Source: Synechococcus sp. AG-683-C23 (GTDB lineage: Bacteria > Cyanobacteriota > Cyanobacteriia > PCC-6307 > Cyanobiaceae). From it: a stretch of DNA of 64,000 nucleotides. Below are positions 2,975-32,915 of the stretch, in pieces. Position 1 is the first letter of the stretch, and each line of letters begins with the position of its first letter. The notes under the pieces are model-generated. The model was not told the origin of the DNA and did no database searches. It saw only the letters and a program-made list of their open reading frames with translations. The translations under genes and the position numbers were made by a program. Location: NCBI GenBank assembly GCA_003208835.1, contig QCVD01000001.1, positions 1 through 64,000 of the forward strand, read 5' to 3'.

Positions 2975-2989
2975 GGAAGCATCCGATGG

Positions 2990-4453
2990 TCAACCCCACC
3001 AGCCTGACGCTAGACGGGGCAGCCAAGCAAGGGCAGGGTCGTAGTGCGGTTGGAAGGGGAGCACATCCGCTCCTCGGTAGTAGTGGCGCAAGATTGTGCG
3101 GAAATCGGCTCCCTGCCCCGCCAGCCCATGGGCACCCCATTGGCTCATCCCAACTCCGTGGCCATACCCCTGACCACGCACTAAAAGTTGCAATCCACCC
3201 ACCGCTGGGACACGACGGTCTTTGGAACGGGTCGCTCGGAATCGGAAGGATCGGGAGCGCATCGGACGCGACAGAAGCGGCGGCGGTGGTGCCACCAACA
3301 ACGCAGCTGATGGGAGGGAAGCGGTTGGTGCCGAGCTCACGATTGATGCAGTAATGCGATCAATACGGGATCTCGATCCACTCGTCGCAGTCGTACGACG
3401 GGCCAAAACGGTGGACGGCTGGGGAGGCTGAGCCGTCGCAGCAGAGACCATCTCAAAGTTCACCAGCGTGCTTTTCAGATCCAAGCGCTGGCGCAACTCA
3501 CGACCGGTCAGCACGAGGGATCCTCGGGGTCCCTCCAGCCTGGCCTGTCGCACACGACCACTCGCACTTCGACTCGTAACATCCACCCGGCTCACGCCAC
3601 CGGTCTCTGGGAGGCGTTGGCGCAAGCCCTGAGAACCAAAGCGTTCCTGCCACCGATGCACCGGACTGTGTTGGTCATGGTCTGGGACGCTCACGAGATA
3701 CGGCAGCTGCCTGCTCCAGACCATCCCGCTGGATTCCGTGACGCCACCAGAACTGCTGTGAAACACCGCATTGATCAATTTGCCCCCATGGACCAGCACC
3801 AACGAACGGGTATCAGCAACCGCCTGGCGAGTGCTGGCGGTTTCAGCCTCAACACCGCGGTACACCTGACTCGCCACAGTGGCCTTCACATCCCATCCAC
3901 CTCCGCGACTGCGCTGACGCAGGGCATAGGTCCGAGCGGCAACGGCCTGGGCCTTCAAGGCGGCTAAGGGCCAATGATGGGGCATTTCACTCCCCACAAC
4001 GCTGGTGAGATAGGTCTCAATACCAAGCGCGTTCACAACCCGTAAACGACCGCCACGACAGCTGATCTGGAATTCACCCCGATAGCGCCGAGAGTCCAAC
4101 CAGATCCCCCGAGGATCATCGTTTTGCACCGTCAAAACGGTGGTTGAGGACAAACGGAGGCGTCTGCCATCCAAAACGGCCACAACGCTGCCACCGGATT
4201 GCTCCAACTGCAACCGTCGGAGCCTTCGCACTCCTGCACCCAAGCCACGCAACTGCATCCAATGCTCTTTGTCCGCCCGAAGCAGCAGCTTTGGTCCCTC
4301 ATGCAACAGAACCCGCATCTGAGGCTCCCGTTCCATCGGCATCGCGTGCTCAGCGGAGCCCAACAGAGCCGCTGTCGCCAATCCCGCCAGTACGACTGAA
4401 GCGATCCGCACCGTGCGCAACCAAAGGCGATTCAGTGTGCCGTGTCCAGCCAT
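2990..4453 (-). CDS. SpoIID/LytB domain protein
   Basis: 487 residues with an N-terminal signal anchor (hydrophobic around residues 14-32). The SpoIID/LytB domain spans roughly 90-300, including the stretch [20 protein letters not shown] followed by [14 protein letters not shown], and a second piece [19 protein letters not shown] at the C-terminal end. SpoIID enzymes are lytic transglycosylases acting on peptidoglycan; in non-sporulating cyanobacteria the role is unknown but is probably cell-wall remodelling. A low-complexity Ser/Pro/Arg-rich insert of about 90 residues (near 335-425) splits the domain. The 5' end is divergent from rnz, with only about 18 bases between likely starts. Confidence 0.85.
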
Positions 4454-5529: not shown

Positions 5530-6042
5530 ATGGTCTCTGTTTTCTCCTCTTTGCGACGGTCCCTTAAAGGCCTCCTCCTTCTTGTACCGGTGTTGATCGG
5601 CTTGGTATTCATCTCCCCTGCTGAAGCAGTGCAATGGGATGCCGAGACACTCACGGTTCCAGTGAATCCCGACGGAGCAGAGGTGACCTTCACAGACCGC
5701 GAGATCAATGCAGGACGCAAGGTGTTCAACACCAGCTGCGGCACCTGCCATGCCGGCGGGATCACCAAAACCAACCAAAACGTTGGCCTCGACCCAGAAA
5801 CCCTGGCGTTGGCCACACCAGCCCGCGACAACGTCGATGCGCTGGTTGATTACATGAAGGATCCCACCTCATACGACGGTGAGTACAGCATTTCCGACGT
5901 CCACCCCAGCATGCGTAGTGCTGAGCTGTACCCGGCAATGCGCGATCTCGATGACGAAGATCTGCGACTCATGGCTGGTTACATCCTCGTGTCCCCGAAA
6001 GTCCAAGGATCGTCTTGGGGTGGCGGCAAGATTTACTTCTAA
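5530..6042 (+). CDS. psbV: photosystem II cytochrome c-550
   Basis: Extrinsic lumenal subunit of photosystem II that stabilises the oxygen-evolving cluster. 170 residues: a signal peptide with hydrophobic core at 14-28 and an AEA cleavage site near residue 33, haem-binding CGTCH at 70-74, and the distal His ligand in SDVHPS at about 125. The C-terminus ends GGGKIYF as in the family. The gene stands alone on the plus strand and is followed by a strong intrinsic terminator at 6099, so it is probably monocistronic. Confidence 0.97.
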   Translation: MVSVFSSLRRSLKGLLLLVPVLIGLVFISPAEAVQWDAETLTVPVNPDGAEVTFTDREINAGRKVFNTSCGTCHAGGITKTNQNVGLDPETLALATPARDNVDALVDYMKDPTSYDGEYSISDVHPSMRSAELYPAMRDLDDEDLRLMAGYILVSPKVQGSSWGGGKIYF

Positions 6043-6098
6043 GAAACAATTCACTCAATTCACTCAATTTAGATTATTAATAACGATTGAATTCAACC

Positions 6099-6128
6099 AA
6101 AAAAGCCGGGTTAAAACCGGCTTTTTTT
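6099..6128 (+). terminator. intrinsic terminator after psbV
   Basis: An A-rich left arm with AGCCGG, a short GTTAAAA loop, the matching CCGGCT and a run of seven T. It lies about 55 bases after the psbV stop codon. The A-tract on the left would let it act weakly in the other direction as well. Confidence 0.85.
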
Positions 6129-6759
6129 ATATCTGTTTCCAACCACGGCCTGACGCCTTGCTTATTCGTTACATCGGCACGTTGCACAGACGCACATCAA
6201 CAAAACCAACTACCGAAAAAGACTCAAGCAGTCAAACAGCAGCTCGGTAATTCCTACGAATCTTTCACTTGCAAATGAATAATTCAAGGACACTTTGGAT
6301 CCAATGCAATAACGGTAGGGTTTTAAATTAACGCTCTACATTTCAATTTTAGGTTCAATATTGCCTGGCTCCATAGAGCGTGGGTGACGGCTGTACCACC
6401 ACTCCTGCAATTCAGAAACCAAGCGCACAGAAAACAGCGTCAATACCGTTGCAGTCGGTCTTGATCCAGGTTGCAGCAACTCCACAGAATATGACGGGCA
6501 TCGGCGCGCAGCCAGATCTGGAACAAAACGTCGGCCCACTCGCCGCCAGCTTGGCTCTTTACTCCTCCAAGCCAAACGACAGCACGGCCATGGAAGCTCT
6601 TCTCGATCGAACAATCGGCAGCACGGACCGATCACCCGAAAGCTGTACTGGCCGCCGGGACTGGTGTGGATGCTGCCAGGAGCCAGCAAATCATGAACAT
6701 CTGAACGGCTCACGACGGCTTAAAACAAAGAAAACTAGCCATACAAAGCGGCCAACAAC
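6129..6759. other. intergenic stretch without a convincing gene
   Basis: About 630 bases between the psbV terminator and the ferredoxin terminator. Frames of 125-135 residues exist on both strands around 6336-6787, but their products are Arg/Ser/Pro/Cys-rich, have no recognisable motif and one runs through the petF terminator. I see no RNA gene. The 5' part (6250-6360) is AT-rich. Confidence 0.5.
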
Positions 6760-14810: not shown

Positions 14811-15038
14811 TTAGCCGGGCAACAGATCAGGCTGATCTTGCTCGTCGCTTAGCTCAACGATAGCCCGTTGCACTGGCTTCACACTCGACTCCTCTAACAG
14901 TCCATCGAAGTCGTCGAAACGTCTCTGCTTCGCCCGAAACGCGATACGTACTGTGGTGAGATAGCGATTACTGGAATGCCGGATCAGACTCTCTCCACGC
15001 TTGGCTAGATCACTCGAATCAACCCCTGCCGAAATCAC
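14811..15038 (-). CDS. rpoZ: RNA polymerase omega subunit
   Basis: 75 residues, the short cyanobacterial omega subunit, which assists assembly of the beta' subunit into RNA polymerase. The segment [20 protein letters not shown] corresponds to the conserved omega core, followed by the typical [13 protein letters not shown] and ending [11 protein letters not shown] at 15038. DUF1818 follows closely on the same strand. The gene is divergent from the Hsp70-like gene with about 125 bases between them. Confidence 0.88.
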
Positions 15039-15165
15039 AAGCCAACTTCGTGTAATTAGTTATCTTAATCGTTGGTCTCAACCATTCAATTCAAGCGATC
15101 CATCACCACCAATCCCGTTAACCTCATCCTGAGTTCAACGTACCTCCATCGCGGCGGGTCACAGC

Positions 15166-16740
15166 GTGGGAGACGACAAGCTTCAACATTCAGCCGGCCG
15201 TGGCGGAACCCTGGCCATTGATTTGGGAAGCACCACGACAGTGGTGGCCTTTCAATCACCCGACACTTCGACAGCACAGCTGGTGGAGCTCTCTCCCATA
15301 AGCCGCCGTCCAGGAGAAGTGCCAAGTCTGGTCTGGCGCAGCGGTGACCAGCTATTGATTGGCCGTCAGGTGATCGAGGCAGGACTCGACGACTCCAACG
15401 ATCCAAGGCTTCATCGGGATTTCAAACGTTTAATCGGGCCACAGGACACCCCGGAACACAGCCGCGCCTGCTGGGCAGGACAACAGTTATTGCAGGAGGT
15501 ATGGCACAGGCTCCCCCCCGAACTCAACATCGAGCGGCTTGTGCTTTCTGCTCCGGTGGAGAGCTATCGCACATACCGCAGCTGGCTGGTAGAAGCGAGT
15601 GCCGCCCTTCCTGTCAAAGAAATTGCCCTGGTTGATGAGCCCACAGCCGCCGCCTTGGGAGCTGGGTTGCCGCCAGGATCGCGGATGCTGGTCGTGGATC
15701 TTGGTGGAAGCACCCTCGACCTAGCCCTGGTATCTCTAGAAGGAGGCGAAGGAAAAGCAGCTCCGATCGCGCAGCTGTTGCGACTTGGTGGCAGAAGCCT
15801 TGGAGGTGGAAGCGGCCAAAAACTACGCACAGCCAAGGTGCTCGGCAAGGCGGGTATGCAGCTTGGTGGTCGTGATATCGATCGCTGGATCGTTGATGCC
15901 TGCTGCCCTAATCAGCCAGTGACTTCAACGTTGCTGAACGCTGCAGAACGTTTGAAGTGTCGCCTCAGTAGCAGTGACGTCTCCGATCGAGATGAGCTGC
16001 TGGAGATCGCAGCGGATGAACAACAACACAACCTTCGCCTATCTCGCCGAAAGCTCGACCAACTCCTCGATCAGCACGGCTTCGATCGAGCCCTCGCGGA
16101 ACTGATGGAAACCACCTTGGCCGGAGGACGACGAAACAACTGCCACCTCGAGGATCTGGAAGGTGTCGTCGCCGTGGGTGGCGGAGCACAACTGCCTTGG
16201 CTACGCCGCTGGCTTGCCGGGAACACCGCTCCAGCCCACTTACTTACCCCCCCACCGGTTGATGCCGTAGCACTGGGTGCTCTCAAGCTGACCCCGGGCG
16301 TGGCGATTCGAGATGTCTTGAAAAATGGTGTGTCGGTTCGAACCTTGGATCAACGCACCAACCGACATCGCTGGCATCCCCTTTTTGTCGCTGGCCAGCC
16401 CTGGCCCAGCACGAGCCCCCTCGACCTTGTCCTCGCCGCCAGTTGGACGGGTCAGCGCAGTATTGAACTGGTCTTGGCCGAACCCTTAACCCAAGGCAGA
16501 CACAGTGTTGTCTTCGTGAATGGCTTGCCGACTGTGCAAGACATCGAGACCCGTGAAAACGACCATCAGCCCTGGCCGAGCAAACCCCTTGTTTTGCCCC
16601 TATCTACACCTGGCGAGGTCGGACAAGACTGCCTTCATTTGCAATGGTCGATCGATGCCGATGCACGGCTTCAGCTCAGCGTCCGCGATCTTCGATCTCA
16701 AGAAGAACAACCCACCGTGATCCTGGGCACGGTCCGATAA
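15166..16740 (+). CDS. Hsp70-family ATPase (DnaK-like)
   Basis: 524 residues with the actin-like ATPase fold of Hsp70: phosphate-1 loop AIDLGSTTTVVAF at about 17-29, VDEPTAAALGAG at about 160, phosphate-2 loop VVDLGGSTLDLALV at about 175-190, and adenosine loop VAVGGGAQLPWL at about 333. The C-terminal part is short (about 150 residues) and lacks a clear canonical DnaK lid, so it is a divergent paralog rather than the main DnaK. Substrate and co-chaperone unknown. GTG start at 15166; no nearer ATG upstream. Confidence 0.85.
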   Translation: MGDDKLQHSAGRGGTLAIDLGSTTTVVAFQSPDTSTAQLVELSPISRRPGEVPSLVWRSGDQLLIGRQVIEAGLDDSNDPRLHRDFKRLIGPQDTPEHSRACWAGQQLLQEVWHRLPPELNIERLVLSAPVESYRTYRSWLVEASAALPVKEIALVDEPTAAALGAGLPPGSRMLVVDLGGSTLDLALVSLEGGEGKAAPIAQLLRLGGRSLGGGSGQKLRTAKVLGKAGMQLGGRDIDRWIVDACCPNQPVTSTLLNAAERLKCRLSSSDVSDRDELLEIAADEQQHNLRLSRRKLDQLLDQHGFDRALAELMETTLAGGRRNNCHLEDLEGVVAVGGGAQLPWLRRWLAGNTAPAHLLTPPPVDAVALGALKLTPGVAIRDVLKNGVSVRTLDQRTNRHRWHPLFVAGQPWPSTSPLDLVLAASWTGQRSIELVLAEPLTQGRHSVVFVNGLPTVQDIETRENDHQPWPSKPLVLPLSTPGEVGQDCLHLQWSIDADARLQLSVRDLRSQEEQPTVILGTVR

Positions 16741-16814
16741 GACGTCCGTCCACAGATCTTGGGTGGACAAGGCAAGTCTTCATAGAACACATCTACTGAT
16801 CTCGAGAGATTGCC

Positions 16815-17657
16815 TTGGCGGTGCAACGCCACCTGCTTCAGCTTTGGGTCCTGGCCACCTTGAGCATGGTGCTCGCCATTGCGGGGGGTGCTTTTTGGTG
16901 GGAAAAACAGCTGCCAGCACAACTCCGCCACGCCATTGCAAACCAGGATTACGAGGGATGCATTCGCGCGACTAATCAGTTGGCCTCCCTGCAGTGGCTT
17001 GGACAAAGAGCGCCAGCCGAGCTGGCACTTTGTCGTCAACGCCATGCTGAACAGCTATGGGCGCAAGGGGCCACGAGCCAAGCCCTCGAACTTCAATACA
17101 AACTCGTGGTGTCTGAACAGGGCGATCTCGACCAAAATCGAGCCACGCTCCACAAATGGCAGCAGACGATCCAAGAACGGGCGATCAGCTTGTTTCGCCA
17201 AGGACAGTTGGAACCATCGCTCGCGCTCCTCAAACCACTGGAATTACAACAGCGAAACCCCATCCGAAATCTTCGCAAAACATTTCAAGAGATCTGGAAC
17301 CGCAACAGCGTTGAACACATGCGCCTCCGACGCCTGGTCCAACAAGAACGCTGGTGGGAAGCACTCGACAGCTTCAATCGGCTCGATCACCCCTGGTGGA
17401 AAGCCAAAGCAGAGGTGCAGAAGCAGCGCATCGAAACCGGTCTCGCAAGTTTTGACCGTGGGATCGAACACAACCAACACGCTGCCCAGCCTGTCGATGT
17501 GATTTCCGGTCAACAGCTCGAACAGGCGGTCCAACGTCAATTAAGGCAAGGAGTCGAAGCTTGGGATGCCTTCCAAGCCGGATGCCAAAGCCTGGGTGGG
17601 CACGTCAAAGAAGACGGACCGGAAAGCTTTTGCCAACGGCCAGCAACAGGACCATGA
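16815..17657 (+). CDS. membrane-anchored helical protein
   Basis: 280 residues with a single N-terminal membrane anchor (hydrophobic 9-27) and then a long, Gln/Leu/Arg-rich helical region with repeated two-helix units (ALELQYKLVVSEQGDLDQN, AISLFRQGQLEPSLALLKPL), suggestive of TPR-like packing. No enzyme motif; the family is not recognised. Start is a TTG at 16815 or GTG at 16821, since no ATG precedes the anchor. It follows the Hsp70-like gene at 75 bases on the same strand, so a shared role is possible but not shown. Confidence 0.65.
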   Translation: MAVQRHLLQLWVLATLSMVLAIAGGAFWWEKQLPAQLRHAIANQDYEGCIRATNQLASLQWLGQRAPAELALCRQRHAEQLWAQGATSQALELQYKLVVSEQGDLDQNRATLHKWQQTIQERAISLFRQGQLEPSLALLKPLELQQRNPIRNLRKTFQEIWNRNSVEHMRLRRLVQQERWWEALDSFNRLDHPWWKAKAEVQKQRIETGLASFDRGIEHNQHAAQPVDVISGQQLEQAVQRQLRQGVEAWDAFQAGCQSLGGHVKEDGPESFCQRPATGP

Positions 17658-17686
17658 CAAAATGATTCAACGAATGGTTTGATGCG

Positions 17687-17908
17687 ATGCAGACGGGTGA
17701 CAAGGTGCAGGTAAACACATCTGTTGTTGTGTACAACCACCCCGAGCATCGCGGCGAAGCTTTCGACATGCAGGGACAAACCGGTGAAATCGTGACCGTT
17801 TTGAATGACTGGAAAGGCCGCTCGATTAGCCCCACACTTCCGGTCATCGTTGCGTTTGGTCGTTACAAGGCCCATTTCCACACTGAAGAGCTCACGTCGG
17901 GGGAATAG
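17687..17908 (+). CDS. ftrV: ferredoxin-thioredoxin reductase variable subunit
   Basis: 73 residues forming the small beta-barrel variable chain of FTR. Recognisable segments are GDKVQVNTSVVVYNHPEH, GQTGEIVTVL and PVIVAFGRYKAHFHTEEL. With the catalytic FtrB/FtrC subunit (not in this window) it transfers electrons from ferredoxin to thioredoxins in light regulation of carbon metabolism. Its 3' end overlaps the 3' end of the convergent pyrR by 17 bases. Confidence 0.92.
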   Translation: MQTGDKVQVNTSVVVYNHPEHRGEAFDMQGQTGEIVTVLNDWKGRSISPTLPVIVAFGRYKAHFHTEELTSGE

Positions 17909-18443
17909 AGCGCTTCAAGAAGACTCCCTCTTCTCCATCAACATCCCGTAAGCGCAGTTCGATCATTTCACTGCGCCGCGAGGGAACGGTCCGGCCGCAA
18001 AAGTCCGGCTGAATCGGCAACTCACGGTGGCCACGGTCCACCATCACGAGCAACATCACGCGCTGGGCACGACCCCAGCCATGGAGCGCCTCCATGGCTG
18101 CGCGCACCGTACGACCTGTAAAAATCACATCGTCAACCAACAACACCTGCCGGTCTTCCAAGTTGCAGGGGAGCGTGGTCGTTTGCGCCAAGCGTGTACC
18201 GATCCGCTCGAGATCATCGCGATGGAAGGTCGGATCAATTGATCCTTGAGCGATGGGGTGACCACTGAGTCGCTCCAATTCACGGGCTAAAACACGAGAC
18301 AACTCCACACCTCGTGTCGGAATACCCAGCAACATCAAGCGACGACTGTCCTCCACTTGCTCCAACACCTGCGTGGCAAGACGAACCAAGGTCCGAACCA
18401 GCTCCCTGTCGGAGAGAATTTCAACCCGGTCTTGGTCAAACAT
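17892..18443 (-). CDS. pyrR: PyrR uracil phosphoribosyltransferase/regulator
   Basis: 183 residues. The PRPP-binding loop VLLVDDVIFTGRTVRAAMEA at about 99-118 and the segment IPTRGVELSRVLA identify PyrR. In Gram-positive bacteria PyrR is an RNA-binding attenuator of pyr operons with uracil phosphoribosyltransferase activity; in cyanobacteria the regulatory part is not established. No pyr biosynthetic gene is near, so the salvage function (uracil plus PRPP to UMP) is the safer reading. Confidence 0.9.
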   Translation of the reverse strand: MFDQDRVEILSDRELVRTLVRLATQVLEQVEDSRRLMLLGIPTRGVELSRVLARELERLSGHPIAQGSIDPTFHRDDLERIGTRLAQTTTLPCNLEDRQVLLVDDVIFTGRTVRAAMEALHGWGRAQRVMLLVMVDRGHRELPIQPDFCGRTVPSRRSEMIELRLRDVDGEEGVFLKRSIPPT

Positions 18444-18541
18444 AGAAGCAAAAAATGTGGTGTTCTGTTGAAATGACTAATTGTGGACAGTCAGAGAGTT
18501 AGGTTGAATTTCGAAAAGTCCTTCAGAAGTGACGGTCGCGG

Positions 18542-20182
18542 GTGAACGTGGGCAGCAGCACTTCCAACGGTTCAGCACGCACCGGATCAATCGCTCCGGT
18601 GGTTCTCACCATTCTTGACGGCTGGGGGCATCGAGACGAAGAAGAAAACAATGCCATTCGGCAGGGAGATACTCCTGTGATGGAGGCCCTGTGGCATGCC
18701 TATCCCCATACTTTGATCCAAGCCAGTGGATCCCATGTGGGTCTTCCGGATCAACAAATGGGCAATTCGGAGGTTGGTCACCTCACAATCGGCGCTGGAC
18801 GCATTATTCGTCAGGAACTAGTTCGCATCGGCGAGACGGTGCACAACGACAAGCTCAAAAGCACCCCAGAACTGCAGAAGCTTGCGGAACGGGTCAAAGC
18901 GGCGGGGAACACCCTGCACCTACTCGGTTTGTGTTCCGATGGCGGAGTCCACAGCCATGTCGACCACCTCTGTGGTGTCATTCGCTGGGCAGCTGAAGCC
19001 GGCATTACCAAGGTCGCGGTTCATGTGATTACAGATGGACGAGACACTCCAACCCAGAGTGCGCCGGGCTACGTCAAAGCTGTCCAAGAGAGCATTCAAT
19101 CCACTGGAGTTGGCGCCATCGCCAGCCTTTGCGGTCGTTATTGGGCGATGGATCGGGACCAACGCTGGGAACGCACGGACAAGGCCTACATGCTGTACAC
19201 CGACCCCGGCATGGACGTGGATGAGCGCGAACCTGAAGACATCCTCACCGCCAGCTACAGAGATGGAATTACAGATGAATTTCTTGAACCAGCACGTCTT
19301 CAACACACCGTGATGCAGGACGGTGATGCCCTCCTGATCTTCAATTTCCGACCCGATCGGGCCCGACAAATTGTTCAGGCACTGTGTTTAGACGAATTTG
19401 ACGGCTTTCATCGTGAACACACTCCGAACCTCGATGTGCTCACCTTCACGCAGCTGGAACAAAACCTGCCGGTCTCCGTGGCCTTTCCCCCAGAACCTCT
19501 CAACAATCTTTTGGGGCAGATCGTATCTGAAGCGGGATTACTGCAATACAGAACCGCAGAAACAGAGAAATATCCTCATGTCACATACTTCATGAACGGA
19601 GGGATTGAACAACCCTTAAAGGGAGAGGAACGTCATCTCGTTCCTTCGCCGAGGGTCGCAACCTACGACTTGTCTCCTGCCATGTCGGCAGATGAACTCA
19701 CCGCAAGCTGCATCAAGGCAATCGAAACCAGAAAGTACGCATTAATCGTGATCAACTACGCCAATCCCGACATGGTGGGACATACGGGGATAATGGACGC
19801 AGCCAAAGAAGCGATCCAGACCGTCGATGATTGCATTGGTCGTTTACTCAATGCAATCGGCCGAGAAGGAGGAACCATGTTGATCACAGCCGATCACGGC
19901 AACGCGGAATTGATGCAAGGGGCCGACGGACAAGCCTGGACTGCCCACACCACGAACCCGGTGCCGGTCATACTGATCGAGGGAGAACAACGCAAAATCC
20001 CCGGCTACGGAAATGCGATTACGCTTCGCGATGATGGAGGCCTTGCAGATATTGCCCCGACGCTTCTGCAGATTCTCAACCTGCCCCAACCGAGTGCAAT
20101 GACAGGTAACAGCTTGATTGCTGCAGTGTCGAATGTCGATCCGTCTCCACTATCTGCCCGCCTTCCCCAAACCGTCTTATAG
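18542..20182 (+). CDS. gpmI: 2,3-bisphosphoglycerate-independent phosphoglycerate mutase
   Basis: Glycolytic enzyme interconverting 3- and 2-phosphoglycerate using two Mn ions; alkaline phosphatase superfamily. 546 residues. Motifs: [16 protein letters not shown], the nucleophile Ser in [42 protein letters not shown], and the second metal site ITADHGNAE with HTTNPVP. GTG start at 18542; the first 18 residues before [10 protein letters not shown] are variable. The stop codon region touches the secG start, so gpmI and secG appear coupled. Confidence 0.97.
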
Positions 20183-20412
20183 TGCTTACTTCAATCTTGT
20201 CTTGGACATGGATCGGCAGCGGTTTGCTGCTCATCGTTTTCGTTCTCCTCCACAGTCCAAAGGGAGATGGCATGGGAGGGCTCGCCGCCAGTGGAAGTTC
20301 CATGTTCAGCAGCGCAAGTAGTGCAGAAGCCACACTGAACAGATTCACCTGGACCTGCTTAGCTATCTTTTTGAGTCTGGCGGTGATCTTGAGCGCGGGT
20401 TGGTTGAATTAA
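20182..20412 (+). CDS. secG: preprotein translocase subunit SecG
   Basis: 76 residues with two membrane spans (about 4-22 and 52-72) separated by a Gly/Ser-rich loop GDGMGGLAASGSSMFSSAS, the hallmark of SecG. It assists the SecYE channel. The first codon, GTG at 20182, overlaps the last base of gpmI. The following gene is on the opposite strand and differs in base composition, marking the edge of the 20.4-23.9 kb island. Confidence 0.9.
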   Translation: MLTSILSWTWIGSGLLLIVFVLLHSPKGDGMGGLAASGSSMFSSASSAEATLNRFTWTCLAIFLSLAVILSAGWLN

Positions 20413-20432
20413 TCCTGGCCTTAGATCATGGG

Positions 20433-21545
20433 CTAAGTACTGATAATTTCAGCACGAGAAGAATTCATAAATGCATTCTCAGACATGAGTAGAAAATCAT
20501 CGATGTCCTTTTGGTTGCGATGCTTTGCCGTCTCCTGCGCCACTTGGACCAAATCATTCAATCTAAGAAGAGGATCTAGAACACTCTCAGGCTCAAAACA
20601 AGACTTATCAACAGACATGAGACGACAATACTCTAAATTAGCAGGATAATTACGTCGATCTAGATATTGAACAATAGATCCACAGAATTCGTTTAAGAAC
20701 ACACTATCTTCAGCTGGCAGCTTCACACTGGCATGATCCAAACGATTGCAAACACGAAATAACCAACGGTTACCCTCATGAGGTCCTGGAAAACAACTTT
20801 TACTAGAGCCGAGCGAACTGAAATGCGAAGAAAGAGCATGAACAACAGCAGGGTGAAAGGAAACATTTTTGCGAACATCAAATACTGAGAGATCATCCTC
20901 ATAATCAAAACCAGACAACTGGAAAAAATCCTCAAGAAGCAAATAGGGACGCTGCTTGGTAGGAATATGGTTGGAAGCTATTGTTATCTGAGACGACAAG
21001 GCATAACTTCCGGCCGTAAGTTTTTTATAATTGGCATGCCAACTGCGATCCTTGCCAGTAAGGGTCATTGCCAAAAGACTACGCTCAAGTGCTGAAAACT
21101 TGCGCCAGGGCAAATCATGATCCTTAACAACAGCAATATCATTGCGAAGCTTCTTACGGTCGCGAAAAAACCATTGCTTAAAGGCAGAGATGTGATAACT
21201 CGATTGAAGCCTCGTATAACCAACAACAACGACATGCTCAAAGCCATGATGCTTCAAGGCCCGGCAAGCGATAGCTTGAACTAATGCCGGACGGTTGCCT
21301 AACATTTCATGACTTAGAACTGAGAAATCACTCTTCAATTCCGACAGAATTTGATCGATATACTGAAAAGGTGATTCTATTTTATGCGTCAATGCATTCG
21401 ACATAGAACGCAACTGAGCAGGATTCAAACAGACAAAAGAGAAGCTTTTGTTGTTGCAAGAATTCTGAAAAAGCCGAAGGGATGCCTGTAAAGAAGAAGA
21501 CGCACACTTCTGAGCACCAATATGGATTGCTAACCGTTGCGCCAC
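20433..21545 (-). CDS. sulfotransferase-like P-loop protein
   Basis: 370 residues that open with a PAPS/P-loop-like motif (AIHIGAQKCASSSLQASLRL, residues 6-25) seen in a large, loosely defined group of sulfotransferase-like proteins often found in surface-polysaccharide regions. The rest is not recognised; a VVVGYTRLQSSYHISAFKQW segment near 105 resembles the second conserved block of that group, where the chain may contact the nucleotide. GTG start at 21545. Base composition is clearly AT-richer than flanking genes. It is divergent from the related gene at 21684. Substrate unknown. Confidence 0.6.
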   Translation of the reverse strand: MAQRLAIHIGAQKCASSSLQASLRLFQNSCNNKSFSFVCLNPAQLRSMSNALTHKIESPFQYIDQILSELKSDFSVLSHEMLGNRPALVQAIACRALKHHGFEHVVVVGYTRLQSSYHISAFKQWFFRDRKKLRNDIAVVKDHDLPWRKFSALERSLLAMTLTGKDRSWHANYKKLTAGSYALSSQITIASNHIPTKQRPYLLLEDFFQLSGFDYEDDLSVFDVRKNVSFHPAVVHALSSHFSSLGSSKSCFPGPHEGNRWLFRVCNRLDHASVKLPAEDSVFLNEFCGSIVQYLDRRNYPANLEYCRLMSVDKSCFEPESVLDPLLRLNDLVQVAQETAKHRNQKDIDDFLLMSENAFMNSSRAEIIST

Positions 21546-21683
21546 TCAACCCTCCCATTACACGCGCACGATATGAACATCATACAAGAACTAAACCCAA
21601 ACAACAAAAGAACAAGCAGACGAACAGTGCCATGCAGAGATATCAGTCAACAATGCTAAAATAAATGAAAGTCGAAGAGTACG

Positions 21684-22844
21684 TTGACAAAACCCCAGTT
21701 TTATTTACATATAGGACACGGCAAGACAGGGACATCCGCCATACAGTCAGCGTTTGCGATTGCACAGGAAGATTTACTAAAAAATGGGATTGAATACCCC
21801 ATACAAAATACTGATCGAGAAAAAGCCTCCCAGTTCGCAATCACATCGGGAAATTGGAATCATAATCCAAAAGAAACTCTCGCTCAGGAACTCATTAGGC
21901 GCTCACGAGAGCGAAATAATAACAACAGTATCTTGCTGAGTTCGGAGTCTCTTTTCTGGCGACTTGATGACCTTTTCGAAGATGGTATGCAGGAATTAAA
22001 GGATCTCAACCTGCATGTTCTGCTGGCCGTACGAGAGATTGAAGAAATGCTCTCCTCAGAATATCAACAACGTGTCAAAAGACATGGAGAGAAACGTCCT
22101 TTTGAACAATTCCTGCGAAGCCGGCACTTTATTTCATCACATCACAAAAGGGCGTCAGAGATAATCACCCTTCTAAAGCAAAATAAAATAAAAACTACAA
22201 TCATTAACTACTCAAAGCATAAAAATAATATTATTGAACTTATTTTCGAAACACTGCATGCCGAAGAAGCCTATCCACGGGATACCGTGAATGGGGTTGT
22301 AGTCAACCGAGGCCTGAGCCATAAGGAGCTCGCAATAATAACCCTCATCAATGCACTCTTTCATACTAAATTTCCCTGGATAAGTACTCGTTTATCTGAT
22401 GCCCTGGTAAAGGAGCTGCCAACCGTGCAATCTCAGAAATGTCGACTGTCAGAAGACAGTAAGCTAAAACTTTATGAAGTCAACAACGATTACATTAGAG
22501 ATATCAATGACAGCCTTGATCCAAATGAACACTTGTTGGATAAATCTACAATGAATTCTGACAGTGCTCCAATTGATCGAAGTGTTTTCCAACAGATTAG
22601 AGAAGAAGAGCAATTATCAATTAACGTTATTAGTTCTACCCTATTAACCGCAATACAAAATGAATCAGAACATATTCGCCTGTCGAACCTAACAATCGAC
22701 CAGCTCATCAAAGTGAGCCAAGCTGAGGATACAAATCCACAAACCAAACTCGAATTGCTTGAACTAGCCGTTGCTAACCGACCTCAAGGGAAACGTCTTG
22801 TCAAATTGCTCGAGCAAGCTCAGACAGAAATCAATCATAGTTAG
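21684..22844 (+). CDS. sulfotransferase-like P-loop protein
   Basis: 386 residues starting with LHIGHGKTGTSAIQSAFAIA (8-27), a textbook P-loop of sulfotransferase-like proteins, followed by ILLSSESLFWRLDDL and a HVLLAVREIEEMLSSEYQQR block near 120 where these proteins have a conserved Arg. The C-terminal third is helical and acidic and ends with a small repeat-like region (NPQTKLELLELAVANRPQGK). The start is TTG at 21684; the ATG 20 bases upstream is out of frame. AT-rich composition matches its two neighbours. It converges with the broken paralog downstream; the two 3' ends overlap by four bases. Confidence 0.62.
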   Translation: MTKPQFYLHIGHGKTGTSAIQSAFAIAQEDLLKNGIEYPIQNTDREKASQFAITSGNWNHNPKETLAQELIRRSRERNNNNSILLSSESLFWRLDDLFEDGMQELKDLNLHVLLAVREIEEMLSSEYQQRVKRHGEKRPFEQFLRSRHFISSHHKRASEIITLLKQNKIKTTIINYSKHKNNIIELIFETLHAEEAYPRDTVNGVVVNRGLSHKELAIITLINALFHTKFPWISTRLSDALVKELPTVQSQKCRLSEDSKLKLYEVNNDYIRDINDSLDPNEHLLDKSTMNSDSAPIDRSVFQQIREEEQLSINVISSTLLTAIQNESEHIRLSNLTIDQLIKVSQAEDTNPQTKLELLELAVANRPQGKRLVKLLEQAQTEINHS

Positions 22845-23839
22845 CGATTTATTTTCGCTAAACCTGTCATGAAATCCAGTACATCTTGCGAAGTTAGCTC
22901 TTCAATAGCTTCAGTTTTAGCCTTCACAAATTGATCTCCTAACAAATCTATCATGTTAATATTAGCAGCATCAATTTGACTCTGAAGCAATGAAATTTCT
23001 GAGCGTGTTAATCGAAATTTACCCGAACTCATATAATGATCTGGCAACTGGATATAGTCTCGATTAAGTTGTTTCTTACGATCAAATCTTGGCCAACGAG
23101 CATTGAGTTGATTTTGATAACGAACCCAAAGATTGCTTTTTGACTCTTGTGTTTGCTTAAATGAATAGCTGCGTATGCTTTTGCAACCACAGAACTCTTC
23201 AAGGAGGTAGGCAACAGGTCCCATCGGATGCTGGCAAGCTTGATAAAATGGAATCAACCTAATCGTTCCACCAAAAACTGATAAAAGCTTTGAAATCTCG
23301 CGGCAACCATCAGGAATGGCCAGGCGAGTCATATTCATTGGATAACGTAAATCACCAAATCCAACAACATCAAGATATTGACCACCTCGGACCTCGGATT
23401 AACTGCTGGACAATGGAATGTGCGTAATCCAAAGGAGCGCCCACAAGTGCAATGGCTTGTATTGCAAAACCATTGCAGCAATTAGACGCTCAAGCGCAAG
23501 TTCCGGCAAGAGTGAGATACCCTCTCCACTAAGAATAATAGAAGAATCGGAATCCAAAACTTGATCCCACTGCATTTGGTATAGATAATTAGTCAGCTCT
23601 ATATCCTTAATTTTCCAACGTCTATTAATATGATATTTAGAGGGTTTGTGATCGTACAACGATCTCAAGGGAACCGAATGATTATTAATTTTTAATCTCG
23701 CTGGATTAGCCGTAGTACAAGAGAAAATTGGATAATGCAGATGCTCTTGCGACAAGTGCTTAATATTGTCTGCACAGGTTTGTTGAAACGACGATGAGGC
23801 CGTTTTATGCAAGCCAATATGCAAATAGCATGTCTTCAT
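22841..23839 (-). pseudogene. broken sulfotransferase-like gene
   Basis: The 5' part (23839 to 23399) encodes 146 residues beginning MKTCYLHIGLHKTASSSFQQ, the P-loop of the same group as the two neighbours, with a SIILSGEGISLLPELALERL block. It ends in a TAA at 23399, and the same frame reopens directly after it and runs to 22841 (DVVGFGDLRYPMNMTRLAIP and on, 165 residues from 23338). Between about 23457 and 23391 a different frame carries the expected continuation (AIALVGAPLDYAHSIVQQLI). The pattern fits a one-base loss near 23457 and a 7-bp tandem duplication ACCTCGG at 23384-23397; removing one copy rejoins the middle and last parts in frame. Confidence 0.7.
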
Positions 23840-23915
23840 ATTTCAACTTAATTCCATCCAACTTAACAGGACGGCGAGGTGTCATCAAGCCAGTGGTTGA
23901 TTTCAAGACAACTGC

Positions 23916-23946
23916 ATAAAAAAGGAGCACCAAAGTGCTCCAAAAA
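23916..23946 (-). terminator. intrinsic terminator downstream of groL
   Basis: On the minus strand GGAGCAC, loop TTTG, GTGCTCC and a run of six T. The A/T tracts on both sides would let it also act on plus-strand transcripts. It lies about 60 bases beyond the groL stop. Confidence 0.75.
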
Positions 23947-23970
23947 CGCAAGAAGTACAAGACTGATAAT

Positions 23971-24000
23971 TGATTGGGAGGGTTGAATCCCTCCCAATCA
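23971..24000. repeat. perfect 12-bp inverted repeat after groL
   Basis: TGATTGGGAGGG and its exact complement separated by six bases, ending four bases before the groL stop codon on the minus strand. There is no T-run immediately after it, so it may stabilise the mRNA 3' end or act together with the terminator at 23916. Confidence 0.7.
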
Positions 24001-24004
24001 ATTA

Positions 24005-25648
<1,644 letters not shown>

Positions 25649-25708
25649 CTAAGAAAGTGTTTAAAACAATTGAATGGTTCAAGACCTCAACGGGTCGCGA
25701 ACAAAAAT

Positions 25709-26020
25709 TCAGTTGACGATCGCGAGGATGTCTTTTTCAGACAACAACACGTACTCATCGCTGCCGAGTTTGATGTCGGTACCGGCGTACTTGCTGTAGA
25801 GAACTTTGTCGCCGACACCAACTTCTGGAGCCTGACGGCTGCCGTCTTCGTTGGGCTTGCCTGGTCCGACTTGAACGACTTCACCGACTTGAGGCTTTTC
25901 CTTGGCGGTGTCAGGCAGAAGGATGCCACCAGCGGTTTTTTCTTCTGATTCAGAAACCTTGACGAAAACGCGATCGCCGAGTGGTTTGACGGTAGAGACG
26001 CTGAGGGTGACAGCAGCCAT
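25709..26020 (-). CDS. groS: co-chaperonin GroES
   Basis: 103 residues from the ATG at 26020 ([20 protein letters not shown]), the 10-kDa lid of the chaperonin. Mobile loop [19 protein letters not shown] at about 26-44 and the end [10 protein letters not shown] match the family. The frame is open eight codons further upstream to 26044, but that extension has no counterpart in GroES. It heads the groSL operon and is divergent from atpD, with 242 bases between starts. Confidence 0.97.
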
Positions 26021-26217
26021 GGGTTGATGCAAAAGCAGGGACAAAGCACCGAGAGCCTCGCAAAATCACGAGTTGGCGCTCAGAGCCGTTGATTGCCAAC
26101 GTATGCAATCCACCCCCCTGTGCACCACAAGACGACTGTGCGGGTGACCGAACAGAACGGGGATTTGTCTTGAGGAGAAACAATCGGCTTAGCGGTGGTA
26201 AGGTTGCGCCGCTCTGA

Positions 26218-27726
<1,509 letters not shown>

Positions 27727-27799
27727 TTCACGATCGGGGATGTGACTCACATCCCCACTGATTTGTCCGTTCTCCTTTCTTCCCTACGAACCAAGGTTC

Positions 27800-28216
27800 A
27801 TGTCCCTCACCCTCCGCGTGCTGGCACCAGACCAGAACGTGTTTGATGGCAGCGCCGATGAGGTGATTCTGCCCAGCACTACAGGTCAGCTCGGTATTTT
27901 GACCGGCCATATTTCAATGCTCACAGCCATTGATGTGGGGGTCTTGCGTGTCCGTGCGAACGGCTCCTGGAATTCCATCGCCCTGATGGGTGGCTTTGCT
28001 GAGGTGGATTCCGACGAAGTCACAGTTTTAGTGAATAAGGCTGAGCTGGGTAGCTCCATCGATCGCAATGCTGCAGAGGCTGACTTTCAAAAGGCAACGA
28101 CAACAGTCGCTGGCATGGAAGGTCAACCTGCATCAGCCGAAAAGATGAAGGCTCAACAGCAGCTCAATGAGGCCCGCGCCAGGATGCAAGCCAGCAAGGC
28201 TGCTTCTGGCGACTGA
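27800..28216 (+). CDS. atpC: ATP synthase F1 epsilon subunit
   Basis: 138 residues: an N-terminal beta-sandwich (SLTLRVLAPDQNVFDGSADE and PSTTGQLGILTGH) and a C-terminal pair of helices (KMKAQQQLNEARARMQAS). It couples the rotor to F1 and limits ATP hydrolysis. Cotranscribed with atpD, with a strong terminator 52 bases after its stop. Confidence 0.96.
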   Translation: MSLTLRVLAPDQNVFDGSADEVILPSTTGQLGILTGHISMLTAIDVGVLRVRANGSWNSIALMGGFAEVDSDEVTVLVNKAELGSSIDRNAAEADFQKATTTVAGMEGQPASAEKMKAQQQLNEARARMQASKAASGD

Positions 28217-28267
28217 TCAAGAGAGACTGCTTTTCTTGAAACCATCCAAAATGATGGTTATGAATTC

Positions 28268-28294
28268 GCCGGGAGCTAGCTTCCCGGCTTTTTA
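28268..28294 (+). terminator. intrinsic terminator after atpDC
   Basis: GCCGGGA and TCCCGGC form a 7-bp GC-rich stem around a GCTAGCT loop, followed directly by TTTTT. Confidence 0.88.
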
Positions 28295-28338
28295 ATGCTT
28301 GTTTTGTGGCACAAGCAAAGTCATGCAGCAGAGAGACA

Positions 28339-28365
28339 ATAAAAAATGACCTGCTAACGCAGGCC
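28339..28365 (-). terminator. intrinsic terminator after the PSRP-3 gene
   Basis: On the minus strand CCTGC, GTTA loop, GCAGG, then TCATTTTTTATT. A short stem; it lies about 35 bases after the stop codon. Confidence 0.6.
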
Positions 28366-28398
28366 CGTTGATTCAGCGCACAAAACGATCGATGAAAA

Positions 28399-28998
<600 letters not shown>

Positions 28999-29039
28999 TC
29001 AAAGAACTAGCCTACCAGCCGCTTTATTCAGCTTGAACC

Positions 29040-29771
29040 CTGGGATCAGCTTCCATTCTTCTGTTCGATATCGATGGGGTCATCCGAGATGTGGCCGGAA
29101 GCTATCGAAAGGCGCTCCAAGACACCGTGGAGCACTACAGCGGCTGGCGGCCATCAGCCGAGCAGATCGACGCGTTAAAGGGGGAAGGGCTGTGGAACAA
29201 CGACTGGGATGCAAGCCTCGAATTACTACGGCGCCGTGGGGAACAACCACCAGCGCGCATTGATCTGATTTCGGTTTTTAGTGATTTTTACTTTGGTGGT
29301 GATCCCAACGGTGACCCCAGCCAATGGAAGGGCTTGATCGGAAATGAGCCCTTACTCGTGGACTCGGATTTTTTCGCCAGTCTCAGCAGCCAAGGCTGGC
29401 GCTGGGGCTTTGTTAGTGGTGCGGAGCCGCCCTCCGCGCGCTACGTGCTCCAAGAACGCCTCGGATTGATCGACCCACCGTTGATCGCGATGGGAGATGC
29501 ACCAGACAAGCCGGATCCAACCGGCTTGATCCGCTTAGCCAAGCAACTCGCTGCCGGTGATGCCCCCCAACGCATCATCTACATCGGCGACACGGTCGCT
29601 GACGTGACCACGGTGATCAATGCCCGGACAGTCCGACCCGACCTCCCTTGGCAAAGCCTGGCCGTTAGCCCTCCCCATGTGGAGAACGTGGGGGCTTATC
29701 AGCAAACGCTGCGGGCAGCAGGCGCCGATCGGGTCCTCGAAAGCACCCTAGATCTCCTCAACATCCTCTAA
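29040..29771 (+). CDS. HAD-superfamily phosphatase (IA-hyp1 type)
   Basis: HAD hydrolase with motif I LLFDIDGVIRD, motif II-like FVSGAEPPSARY and motif III/IV DKPDPTGLIRLA followed by IYIGDTVADV. The standard gene start, a GTG at 29091, would fall after motif I and remove both catalytic aspartates (DID at 29067-29075), so translation must begin upstream. The frame is open only from 29037, where possible starts are CTG 29040, ATT 29055 or CTG 29061; none is ATG, GTG or TTG. The member type resembles a HAD-IA subgroup known from cyanobacteria and archaea; substrate unknown. Confidence 0.75.
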   Translation: MGSASILLFDIDGVIRDVAGSYRKALQDTVEHYSGWRPSAEQIDALKGEGLWNNDWDASLELLRRRGEQPPARIDLISVFSDFYFGGDPNGDPSQWKGLIGNEPLLVDSDFFASLSSQGWRWGFVSGAEPPSARYVLQERLGLIDPPLIAMGDAPDKPDPTGLIRLAKQLAAGDAPQRIIYIGDTVADVTTVINARTVRPDLPWQSLAVSPPHVENVGAYQQTLRAAGADRVLESTLDLLNIL

Positions 29772-31093
29772 CGCTCCATCGCCGCGACACTCTTCTGGGC
29801 GATATGGGTCAACACCTCATGGCCCTGCTCGGTGACGGCAACATCGTCTTCAATGCGAATGCCAATCCCTTTCCAACGGTCGTCAATCTCGGGCTGCCCT
29901 TCTGGAACAGCCAACCGGTCGCTGATGTACAACCCAGGCTCCACAGTGAGCACGAAGCCAGTTTCTAATTCAGCCGGCCGTTCACCCAGGCGGTAAGCCC
30001 CCACGTCATGCACATCCAACCCCAACCAATGTCCGGTGCGGTGCATGTAGAGATGGCGGTAATCACCTCGTTCAATCAGTCCATCGGGATCTCCAACCAG
30101 AAGGCCCAAATCAATGAGGCCTTCAACCAATGTGCGTAACGCTGTGTTGTGCACATCTTCCGCTGTACCGCCGGGTCGCACCATCGCAATCGCTGATTCC
30201 TGGGCCGCTAAAACCAGGCTGTAGAGCTCCCGTTGCTCTGCACTGAAGCGCCCATTAATGGGGAACGTGCGAGTGATGTCGCCGTTGTAGTAGTCCTCGA
30301 CGGAACATCCGGCGTCAATCAGTAGGAGGTCTCCGTCCTGCAGGGGGGCCGTATTGGCGGTGTAGTGGAGAACGCAGGCGTTATCTCCGCCAGCAACGAT
30401 GGATCCATAGGCCGGGCCCCGAGCTCCACTAGCCCGGAAATGGGCCTCAATCGCCGCCTGCACTTCCGACTCCCGCATCCCAGGGCGAGTCATCTCCCGT
30501 GCGATTTCATGGGCTTCCGCGGAGATTCGACAGGCATCACGCAAACGCGCCAGCTCATGCGGGTCCTTGCGAAGGCGCAAACGATGCAAGATCGGCGTCG
30601 GCGCCACCAAACCAAACGCTGCTTCTCCAGTGCGTGAGTAGGTATCCAGCTGACGCCCCCAGGCGGAAAGCACCATCGGCTCTACCGCCGGGTGACGACC
30701 AATCCGGAACGCAATGGCTTCAACTCCATTGAGATAGCCAGGCAATTTCTCCTGGAGTAGCTCAAGGGGGTAGGCGACGTCGGCTCCGTAGCGCTCCACG
30801 GCCCCCTCCGTTCCCCAACGGAATCCTGTCCAAACCTCCGCCGCTGGATCCTTCGATTGGACAAAAAGCACAAAGCGCTCGCCCTCGGGTCGGTGGGGCA
30901 ACAACAGAGCGACCGCATCGGGCTCATCGAAGCCCGTGAGATAGAAAAAATCACTGTCTTGGCGAAACGGCCACTCGCAGTCAGCGTGATGCGTCGTCAG
31001 AGCTGCAGCGGGAATGACTGCAGCAGCAGCCCCCAACTGCTCAATGAAACGCTCGCGTCTGAGCGCATAGATACCGAGATCAAATGCGGTCAA
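29768..31093 (-). CDS. pepP: Xaa-Pro aminopeptidase (aminopeptidase P family)
   Basis: 441 residues of the M24 pita-bread fold. The N-terminal creatinase domain (FRQDSDFFYLTGFDEPDAVA) precedes the metal-binding catalytic domain: LIDAGCSVEDYYNGDITRTF holds two Asp ligands, HRTGHWLGLDVHDVG the His ligand, and TVEPGLYI plus GIRIEDDV the two Glu ligands. It removes N-terminal residues preceding proline. The 3' end overlaps the convergent HAD gene by four bases. Confidence 0.93.
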   Translation of the reverse strand: MTAFDLGIYALRRERFIEQLGAAAAVIPAAALTTHHADCEWPFRQDSDFFYLTGFDEPDAVALLLPHRPEGERFVLFVQSKDPAAEVWTGFRWGTEGAVERYGADVAYPLELLQEKLPGYLNGVEAIAFRIGRHPAVEPMVLSAWGRQLDTYSRTGEAAFGLVAPTPILHRLRLRKDPHELARLRDACRISAEAHEIAREMTRPGMRESEVQAAIEAHFRASGARGPAYGSIVAGGDNACVLHYTANTAPLQDGDLLLIDAGCSVEDYYNGDITRTFPINGRFSAEQRELYSLVLAAQESAIAMVRPGGTAEDVHNTALRTLVEGLIDLGLLVGDPDGLIERGDYRHLYMHRTGHWLGLDVHDVGAYRLGERPAELETGFVLTVEPGLYISDRLAVPEGQPEIDDRWKGIGIRIEDDVAVTEQGHEVLTHIAQKSVAAMER

Positions 31094-32218: not shown

Positions 32219-32395
32219 TCAACAGTCGTATTCGACCTCAGAAAGACGTTGACGACGCTGAACATCGTTGTCTTTCATTTGTGATTCGTCGTAGTTGAGG
32301 CCATTGATAGGACAAGCAACAGCACGAAAGGGCTTGTGGCTGCCTTCTTTGACAAGGGTCCCAATACTCTTAGAACCGAGAAAGTCGAGAATCAC
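32219..32395 (-). CDS. small hypothetical protein (58 aa)
   Basis: The open frame extends far upstream, but only the last 58 residues have a natural composition: from GTG at 32395, ILDFLGSKSIGTLVKEGSHK, then PFRAVACPINGLNYDESQMK and an acidic/basic end. No family recognised. It begins 17 bases after the small gene at 32413, on the same strand, so the two may form a unit. Confidence 0.5.
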   Translation of the reverse strand: MILDFLGSKSIGTLVKEGSHKPFRAVACPINGLNYDESQMKDNDVQRRQRLSEVEYDC

Positions 32396-32412
32396 TGATT
32401 GGGAAACAGGGT

Positions 32413-32640
32413 TTAGGCGTGAACCAAAGCTTTGCCTTTGACTTCCAAGTCGGCATTCACCCACATCACACCTTTCGATGTGATCAGAGACAACATCACT
32501 CGGTCGTCGCGAAGAAGTCGGTAGGTGGACAACTCCTGTCCAATCAACTCTTTGGCGTGAGTTGTTGCGCAATGAAGATCCGAATGGTTGGAATCGTGCT
32601 CCCAACCGTTCGACGTGAGTTTTTCTAGTCGGACGGTCAT
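32413..32640 (-). CDS. small hypothetical protein (75 aa)
   Basis: 75 residues starting MTVRLEKLTSNGWEHD, with a beta-rich look (STYRLLRDDRVMLSLITSKG, then VMWVNADLEVKGKAL). No membrane segment or known motif. ATG start at 32640. The amino-acid profile is natural, while competing longer frames on both strands are not. Function unknown. Confidence 0.6.
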   Translation of the reverse strand: MTVRLEKLTSNGWEHDSNHSDLHCATTHAKELIGQELSTYRLLRDDRVMLSLITSKGVMWVNADLEVKGKALVHA

Positions 32641-32915
32641 GGTTGTTTTTTACGTGTCCGTACAAACCAGGATTGGCACAAAAAACAACGGCCGCAAGAA
32701 AAAAATGGAAACGAATACCGAAATATCGGAATCGCTTCGGGATCACATCTCTACAAAACCAGAAAATTCAGCTCAAACCGGGACGTCCGTCATGAACCCC
32801 AACAACCGTTATTCCTTTGCGAGCACTGGACTCCTAGAGAGATCGCAGATCAGACCGCGTGAATCTTTGGCATGAGTGATGACCATTTGCGCCAGCTCAG
32901 CATCGAAACAATCTT

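Follow-up and report, generated by a model that had tools for sequence, protein, structure and literature searches.

Background

Replacement flexible genomic islands were described by Lopez-Perez et al. (2014; PMC4033161, accessible part of the text), and avoidance of phages and grazers was proposed as the role of island glycan genes by Dufresne et al. (2008; PMC2441476, accessible main text). In the present study, we analyzed a stretch of 64,000 nucleotides from Synechococcus sp. AG-683-C23 (contig QCVD01000001.1, positions 1 to 64,000), hereafter called the window, in which three sulfotransferase-like genes, A, B, and C, lie between secG and groL. In relatives, the borders of this site are conserved and its content varies; the tree of gene B conflicts with that of the flanking genes, some copies have decayed, the cargo is under purifying selection, and a structural model predicts a sulfotransferase fold for B. 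We therefore regard it as rather probable that the site is a small island of the replacement type, at which lineages take up, swap, and discard small sets of sulfotransferases dependent on 3'-phosphoadenosine 5'-phosphosulfate (PAPS), probably for a surface glycan. No publication on the secG-groL site was found in a literature search that covered mostly the openings of abstracts, few subscription papers, and no supplements.

A conserved bracket around a variable slot

The draft genome that contains the window comprises 1.91 Mb in 81 contigs and is 77% complete. The features of the site are as follows, the first open reading frame (ORF) being one that we take to be gpmI.

18542..20182, + strand: gpmI (phosphoglycerate mutase), an ORF that adjoins the site in relatives; left outer flank of the bracket
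20182..20412, + strand: secG, 76 amino acids, with homologues in relatives; left border, where homology with G003, whose cargo differs, breaks off at the secG stop
20433..21545, - strand: gene A, 370 amino acids, sulfotransferase-like; P-loop HIGAQKCASS, S78-x-E80, R112-x7-S120
21684..22844, + strand: gene B, 386 amino acids, TTG start, sulfotransferase-like; P-loop HIGHGKTGTS, S86-x-E88, R117-x7-S125
22841..23839, - strand: gene C, a broken copy; the intact sulfotransferase-like gene has about 335 amino acids; P-loop HIGLHKTASS
23390..23475, - strand: out-of-frame stretch of C in the alignment with three relatives, covering R-x7-S
24005..25639, - strand: groL, convergent to secG; right border

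At the secG-groL junction, two transcription units converge and form a conserved bracket. Within the genus, gpmI and groL are 1.08 to 14.4 kb apart in the 25 relatives in which one contig carries both (3.8 kb in the window), and the stops of secG and groL are separated by 0.84 to 14.2 kb in those 25 genomes, the window included, for which both ends were located. A draw of 121 genomes from the family gave 116 from outside the genus, the five genus rows being excluded from the count. Both gpmI and groL were found at the thresholds used in 96 of these 116; they are syntenic in 83 genomes, convergent in all 83, with gaps of 356 to 13335 bases, and lie on different contigs in 12 and far apart in one. 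In other genera, the interior of the slot looks different (29 stretches read), and proteins scanned there individually gave matches to N6/N4 DNA methylase, ammonium transporter, and a DegT-type aminotransferase. At four loci, each from another genus (L165, L166, L174, and L175), the slot holds a gene of 711-751 amino acids with a similar start, and the one that was scanned (L165) matches N6_N4 DNA methylase.

Within the genus, the slot was read in 26 of 33 relatives, which gives 27 genomes with the window; in the remaining seven (G017, G018, G019, G025, G026, G031, and G032), gpmI and groL were not both found on one contig. For G010 two contigs were read, G009 and G011 have a partial groL, and Pfam scanning of the relatives' cargo covered part of the ORFs. 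A sulfotransferase-like gene, either of the families A to D or of a Pfam type, is present in the slot of 22 of the 27 genomes, G016 being marginal with a sulfotransferase match below the cut-off. The slot is nearly empty in G004, G013, G027, and G028. Gene A occurs in 12 genomes (only 27-28% identical in G009 and G024), B in 15 (78% identical in G001), C in six, the window's broken copy included, and D, a relative of C on the + strand, in seven, with 10 copies; a gene F of 462-484 amino acids occurs in seven. The order A-B-C recurs in six genomes. A search for B in 34 genomes gave 15 strong matches (E 1.5e-74 or better), all of them in the slot, and seven weaker matches located outside it. Among 300 genomes of the wider family, 12 gave a match to A, 10 of which belong to the genus; the gene is not always at the slot. 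Pfam sulfotransferases above the cut-off (families PF00685, PF03567, PF13469, and PF17784) lie in the slot of G005, G012, G015, and G020, and the G005 gene has homologues in G006 and G007; in the window genome, PF00685 has six matches elsewhere and none in the slot. Genes for glycosyltransferases (GT2, GT92, or GT61) or methyltransferases occupy the slot of G005, G009, G015, G020, and G024. Thus, in this comparison, which the preliminary description of the locus had proposed as a check, the same three genes did not occupy the site in all relatives.

The cargo is AT-rich. In the window, the interval spans 20413-24004, with the genes in the order A, B, C and the orientation -, +, -, and its GC content in 500-base windows is 0.38-0.45, against 0.50-0.62 in the flanks (15000-20499 and 24000-29999). 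GC at third codon positions (GC3) is 0.32-0.43 in the four island ORFs, which hold the lowest ranks 1, 2, 3, and 5 among 50 window ORFs; the other 46 have a mean of 0.613 (standard deviation 0.060, minimum 0.411). Two ORFs elsewhere in the window, 32219-32746 and 63019-63996, are also low in GC3 (0.41 and 0.46). Across the genomes, genes A to D have a GC content 0.108-0.251 below that of their own gpmI in 39 of 39 tested, the three genes of G010 being excluded from this comparison. Of the other cargo ORFs of at least 200 amino acids, 30 of 34 lie at least 0.10 below gpmI, and the sulfotransferase gene of G007 lies only 0.03 below. No transposase family appeared in the Pfam results for the window ORFs, and an Rfam scan of 20100-24200, with the tRNA model included, gave no match. 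The preliminary description was therefore accurate as to the position between secG and groL, the P-loop starts, the alternating orientation, the lack of a transposase, and the higher AT content than in the neighbours.

An integrative element (an integrase at a tRNA gene) was considered for the window site and rejected, because neither integrase nor tRNA is present in the interval. Tyrosine-integrase-like genes, together with a resolvase, lie inside the slot of G014 (L105 6357-7610 and 5552-6214) and G015 (L112 8394-9731; integrase-like match just below the cut-off), the two genomes whose intervals are longest, at 12.4 and 14.4 kb. Integrase-like genes were found in the slot of these two only, and no tRNA was found in the intervals of six relatives, G014 and G015 among them. 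In 15 of the 27 genomes, a gene of about 125 amino acids without a clear family (RPGAFAANF; L108 6993-7385) lies between the cargo and groL; it was not found in the other 12, the window among them, and similar starts are seen in L170 and L176 from another genus.

Exchange, loss, and selection

In the tree of gpmI and groL (27 genomes), G000, G001, and G003 form a clade (support 100/99), and G022 and G033 fall inside a 13-genome clade with G008, G002, G021, and others (100/100). The B gene of G003, however, falls in the other B clade, and grouping of B from G000, G001, and G003 was rejected by the approximately unbiased (AU) test (p 5e-5). For G022 and G033, a grouping that keeps B inside their flank clade was likewise rejected (AU p 3e-7). 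The groups tested were taken from the flank tree, but after a B tree had been seen; B of G029, which has a long branch, was omitted from the second B tree, and G009 and G024 were omitted from the A tree. The type of B predicts its partner gene, C or F, and the two are never crossed: F accompanies B in seven of seven members of one B clade and in none of the seven of the other, C accompanies B in six of seven members of the second clade and in none of the first, and the lone B of G029 stands apart.

Between G000 and G003, homology changes over at the secG stop codon and at that of groL. Between G033 and the nearly empty G013 and G004, it is lost a few bases from the secG stop and regained in the small gene before groL, and between G021 and G027 or G028 it extends 80-100 bases beyond the secG stop, into the end of A. 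Synonymous distance is greater for the cargo than for gpmI and groL in all 11 rows compared; for instance, B of G002 and G023 differs by 0.37, against 0.12 and 0.11 for gpmI and groL. The ratio of nonsynonymous to synonymous rates (dN/dS) is 0.06-0.25 in nine intact pairs of A, B, C, D, and F, values that are rough because dS exceeds 1 in six of the nine. The cargo genes thus appear to be kept for function under purifying selection. The preliminary description had taken the genes for acquired or shuffled cargo. Shuffling is supported by the variable interior and by the conflict between B and the flank tree, whereas recent acquisition is not supported, since the order A-B-C and the low GC content are common to relatives.

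Decay is also seen in the slot. Gene C of the window consists of two ORFs, 23399-23839 (146 amino acids) and 22841-23338 (165 amino acids), which match the halves of one gene; the P-loop is on the first piece only. Thus, of the three genes noted earlier, A and B stand, and the third is one broken gene in two ORFs. The reading frame of C is open in five relatives (333, 339, 339, 345, and 361 amino acids), and compared with three relatives the window copy lacks 10 nt near 23471 and has gained 7 nt in tandem near 23392-23403, where CCGAGGT stands twice. R-x7-S was not found in the window's C, the motif falling in the out-of-frame stretch. The apparent break may be an assembly fault of the draft genome; neither indel is a homopolymer slip. 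The two halves have dN/dS values of 0.31 and 0.18. With a broken Sulfotransfer_2-like gene in the slot of G022 and a remnant of A directly after secG in G014, decay in the slot is recurrent.

Evidence for sulfotransferases

Proteins A, B, and C/D constitute sulfotransferase-like families without a model in Pfam and NCBIfam. No Pfam or NCBIfam model matched the window proteins (A, B, and the C pieces) at the cut-off, nor did any PADLOC or PHROGs family match A, B, and one intact C. None of the Pfam models Sulfotransfer_1, _2, _3, and _4 appeared among the matches listed for A, B, both pieces of C, or 15 intact C/D proteins; these 15 gave one DUF4363 match in Pfam (E 0.0067) and none in NCBIfam.

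For this analysis we defined a motif set consisting of H-x-G-x-x-K-(T/C)-(G/A)-(S/T)-(S/T), S-x-E, and R-x7-S. A P-loop with its lysine near the N-terminus is present in all 42 A, B, and intact C/D proteins, and the full set is present in 41 of them, against 128 of 4200 shuffled tails; the sole miss, B of G012, has an unread residue at the arginine of R-x7-S, a motif otherwise invariant or almost so. The spacing from the glutamate to the arginine is constant in each family (A, 32; B, 29; C/D, 31). In profile comparison with hhalign, B matches C/D over 142 columns (probability 96.9, E 1.5e-10), A matches B over only 52 columns at the P-loop (probability 81.8), and A against C/D reaches a probability of 12.7. 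The earlier statement that the genes share a P-loop but little else therefore holds for the P-loop but not for the rest, given the B-C/D profile match and the common S-x-E and R-x7-S, with A the less alike.

A wider profile of B, built from B and 21 relatives, mostly from Synechococcus and Rhodobacterales, found 16 PDB sequences at E<=10, of which 14 are sulfotransferases (best E 0.0024), and it places the arginine and serine on the RNPRDVLVSGY motif of animal sulfotransferases. The structural model of B (pLDDT, the predicted local confidence score, 86.8) was matched to heparan sulfate 3-O-sulfotransferase-3 with Z 13.0 (4.2 A, 219 residues, 10% identity), and all 50 VIA rows listed for it, with Z 8.7-13.0, are of the sulfotransferase type, where we count Teg12, Teg14, and retinol dehydratase as presumably of that type. 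Thus, the sulfotransferase reading of the preliminary description is supported for B by the wider profile and the fold model; A is likely to be sulfotransferase-like on its motifs, although its model is of low confidence, and C would be so by its homology to B. APS kinase, the enzyme that makes PAPS, is encoded in the window genome and in 28 of 34 genomes.

Proteins similar to B are found at 15 loci (L123-L137), mostly of Rhodobacterales, and are 26-58% identical over the matched part; that of L123 has no Pfam match at E 0.01. Locus L119, on a contig labelled proteobacterium MAG (metagenome-assembled genome), carries an A-B pair whose B is 50% identical to that of the window and is probably a misplaced Synechococcus contig. 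For gene F (L091 2403-3842 and six homologues, mean column identity 75%), no credible relative was found in Pfam or PDB.

Proposed mechanism

A and B are both likely to be active, and C appears to have decayed in the window genome. The P-loop of A and B would hold the 5'-phosphosulfate of PAPS and R-x7-S its 3'-phosphate; the sulfate would then be moved from PAPS to the acceptor, with the glutamate of S-x-E as the candidate catalytic base. A glycan of the cell surface is the likely acceptor, as the preliminary description had suggested with surface polysaccharide, and if so, the sulfate pattern met by phages and grazers would change with the gene set. The slot may accordingly be a place where cells change their surface sulfate pattern. 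By analogy with replacement flexible genomic islands, the exchange most likely proceeds by homologous recombination in the conserved flanks rather than by a mobile element; we infer this route, since divergence does not peak consistently at the borders across 13 pairs and the window site contains neither an integrase nor a tRNA.

It is possible, though we think it unlikely, that the sets form a sulfation code, swappable between lineages, in which B is the frequent member, its co-inherited partner (C or F) determines acceptor or position, and each set gives one surface glycan a sulfate pattern of its own under phage pressure. The element of phage pressure is tied to the viral contig L151 (IMGVR_UViG_3300047359_001403), whose two noted genes lie at 2453-3526 and 6029-6682. 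One of the two is B-like (28%, E 1e-21), and the other matches PHROG 3347, galactose-3-O-sulfotransferase (E 4e-5), with a pyrimidine-dimer glycosylase-like gene adjoining. No match to B was found in phage records, and no relative of A in viral contigs.

Alternative explanations

Several observations weigh against a replacement-type island of sulfotransferases. The flank tree was built from two genes, both at the site itself and not genome-wide, and the A tree does not conflict with it. The 13 border comparisons lack the consistent divergence peak mentioned above: G021-G028 is low at both borders (91.0 and 91.5%), but so is the pair of nearly empty genomes G027-G028 (92.8 and 94.2%), and the border windows span 82-99.8% identity, too distant for the published substitution-peak test. 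A-like stretches after secG in nearly empty genomes suggest traces of a lost A, and hence loss beside exchange. As for the proteins, the narrow B profile finds no sulfotransferase in PDB, and neither do phmmer with B or the narrow A and C/D profiles; with Foldseek alone, neither B nor A reaches a PDB match at E<=0.001 (best for B, 3e-3). The model of A has a pLDDT of 68, under 50 at residues 111-128 where R-x7-S sits, and its structural matches mix P-loop kinases, designs, and sulfotransferases, NDST1 at Z 10.8 standing beside a designed P-loop protein at Z 11.5. Finally, neither a polymerase nor an exporter was recognised among the genes of the window's slot, and nothing there names the acceptor.

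This last point speaks for the possibility that the enzymes act on a small molecule or a protein instead of a surface glycan, which is the alternative that survives best, although we judge it improbable; the sequence-profile matches are, moreover, to small-molecule SULT enzymes. However, heparan sulfate sulfotransferases are the closest structural matches of B, and the cargo of the site in other genomes includes GT2, GT92, GT61, and methyltransferase genes. Among distant relatives (four loci, with one to three neighbours scanned at each), L131 has two GT2 neighbours, and L130 has a GT1 match just below the cut-off. A glycan acceptor is therefore favored by the nearest folds, the glycan enzymes of the same slot, and the neighbours of distant relatives.

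An ancient AT-rich cluster, vertically inherited and differentially lost with no exchange between lineages, seems to us somewhat less probable still. It would account for the lack of conflict between the A tree and the flank tree, for the A remnant in G014 and the short A-like stretches in G027 and G028 (identified by eye), and for the other broken copies, namely the window's C and the Sulfotransfer_2-like gene of G022. Yet the grouping of B by flank clade was rejected twice, and the synonymous distance of the cargo exceeds that of gpmI and groL in every row, although codon bias may contribute to the latter. The proteins might also be kinase-like and merely resemble sulfotransferases, as the weak Foldseek scores and the matches of the A model to adenylate kinases and GPN GTPases would allow; this is doubtful in the extreme, since R-x7-S aligns with the sulfotransferase motif and every VIA row listed for B is sulfotransferase-type. 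Recent acquisition of a single foreign AT-rich block by this genome, to which the deviating GC content and third codon positions had pointed, was dropped as the least credible explanation, because A-B-C order recurs, the strong B matches are all at the slot, genes A to D are AT-rich in every genome tested, and B is closely matched in G001.

Comparison with known systems

On the replacement-type reading, one small locus is where predicted sulfotransferases that Pfam and NCBIfam do not recognise are gained, exchanged, and lost, at the same position in both complete and draft genomes of a single marine Synechococcus genus. Such a locus makes the surface sulfation of picocyanobacteria, and its possible sway over recognition by phages and grazers, testable by deletions and swaps.

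Among known enzymes, B resembles the heparan sulfate 3-O-sulfotransferases and the NDST domain in the predicted fold of residues 1-293 (Z 11.5-13.0, ranks 1-14), in the P-loop, and in R-x7-S, but it differs in its low identity (10-14%) and in about 95 extra C-terminal residues. Members of the Pfam sulfotransferase families share the slot in G005, G012, G015, and G020, whereas their models were not listed for A, B, and C/D.

The locus is like the marine Synechococcus islands of Dufresne et al. (PMC2441476) in its deviant composition, its glycan genes, and the role proposed in relation to phages and grazers; the words groEL and sulfotransferase are absent from the accessible main text of that paper. 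Compared with the replacement flexible genomic islands of Lopez-Perez et al. (PMC4033161), as presented in the accessible part of that paper, the slot is small (about 1-14 kb) and holds enzymes of the decoration type instead of a whole biosynthesis cluster, its genes appear to be exchanged one at a time or as pairs (B with C or F), the borders show no consistent peak, and the genomes compared are one per species and not strains. In common with these islands, the site lies among core genes, bears different genes of like function and of a glycan-decorating kind, and shows a tree conflict. Such islands code for exposed structures, and the cargo of the slot includes glycan-type enzymes that may act on structures of this kind. 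As in replacement islands, conserved core flanks enclose different genes of like function in relatives.

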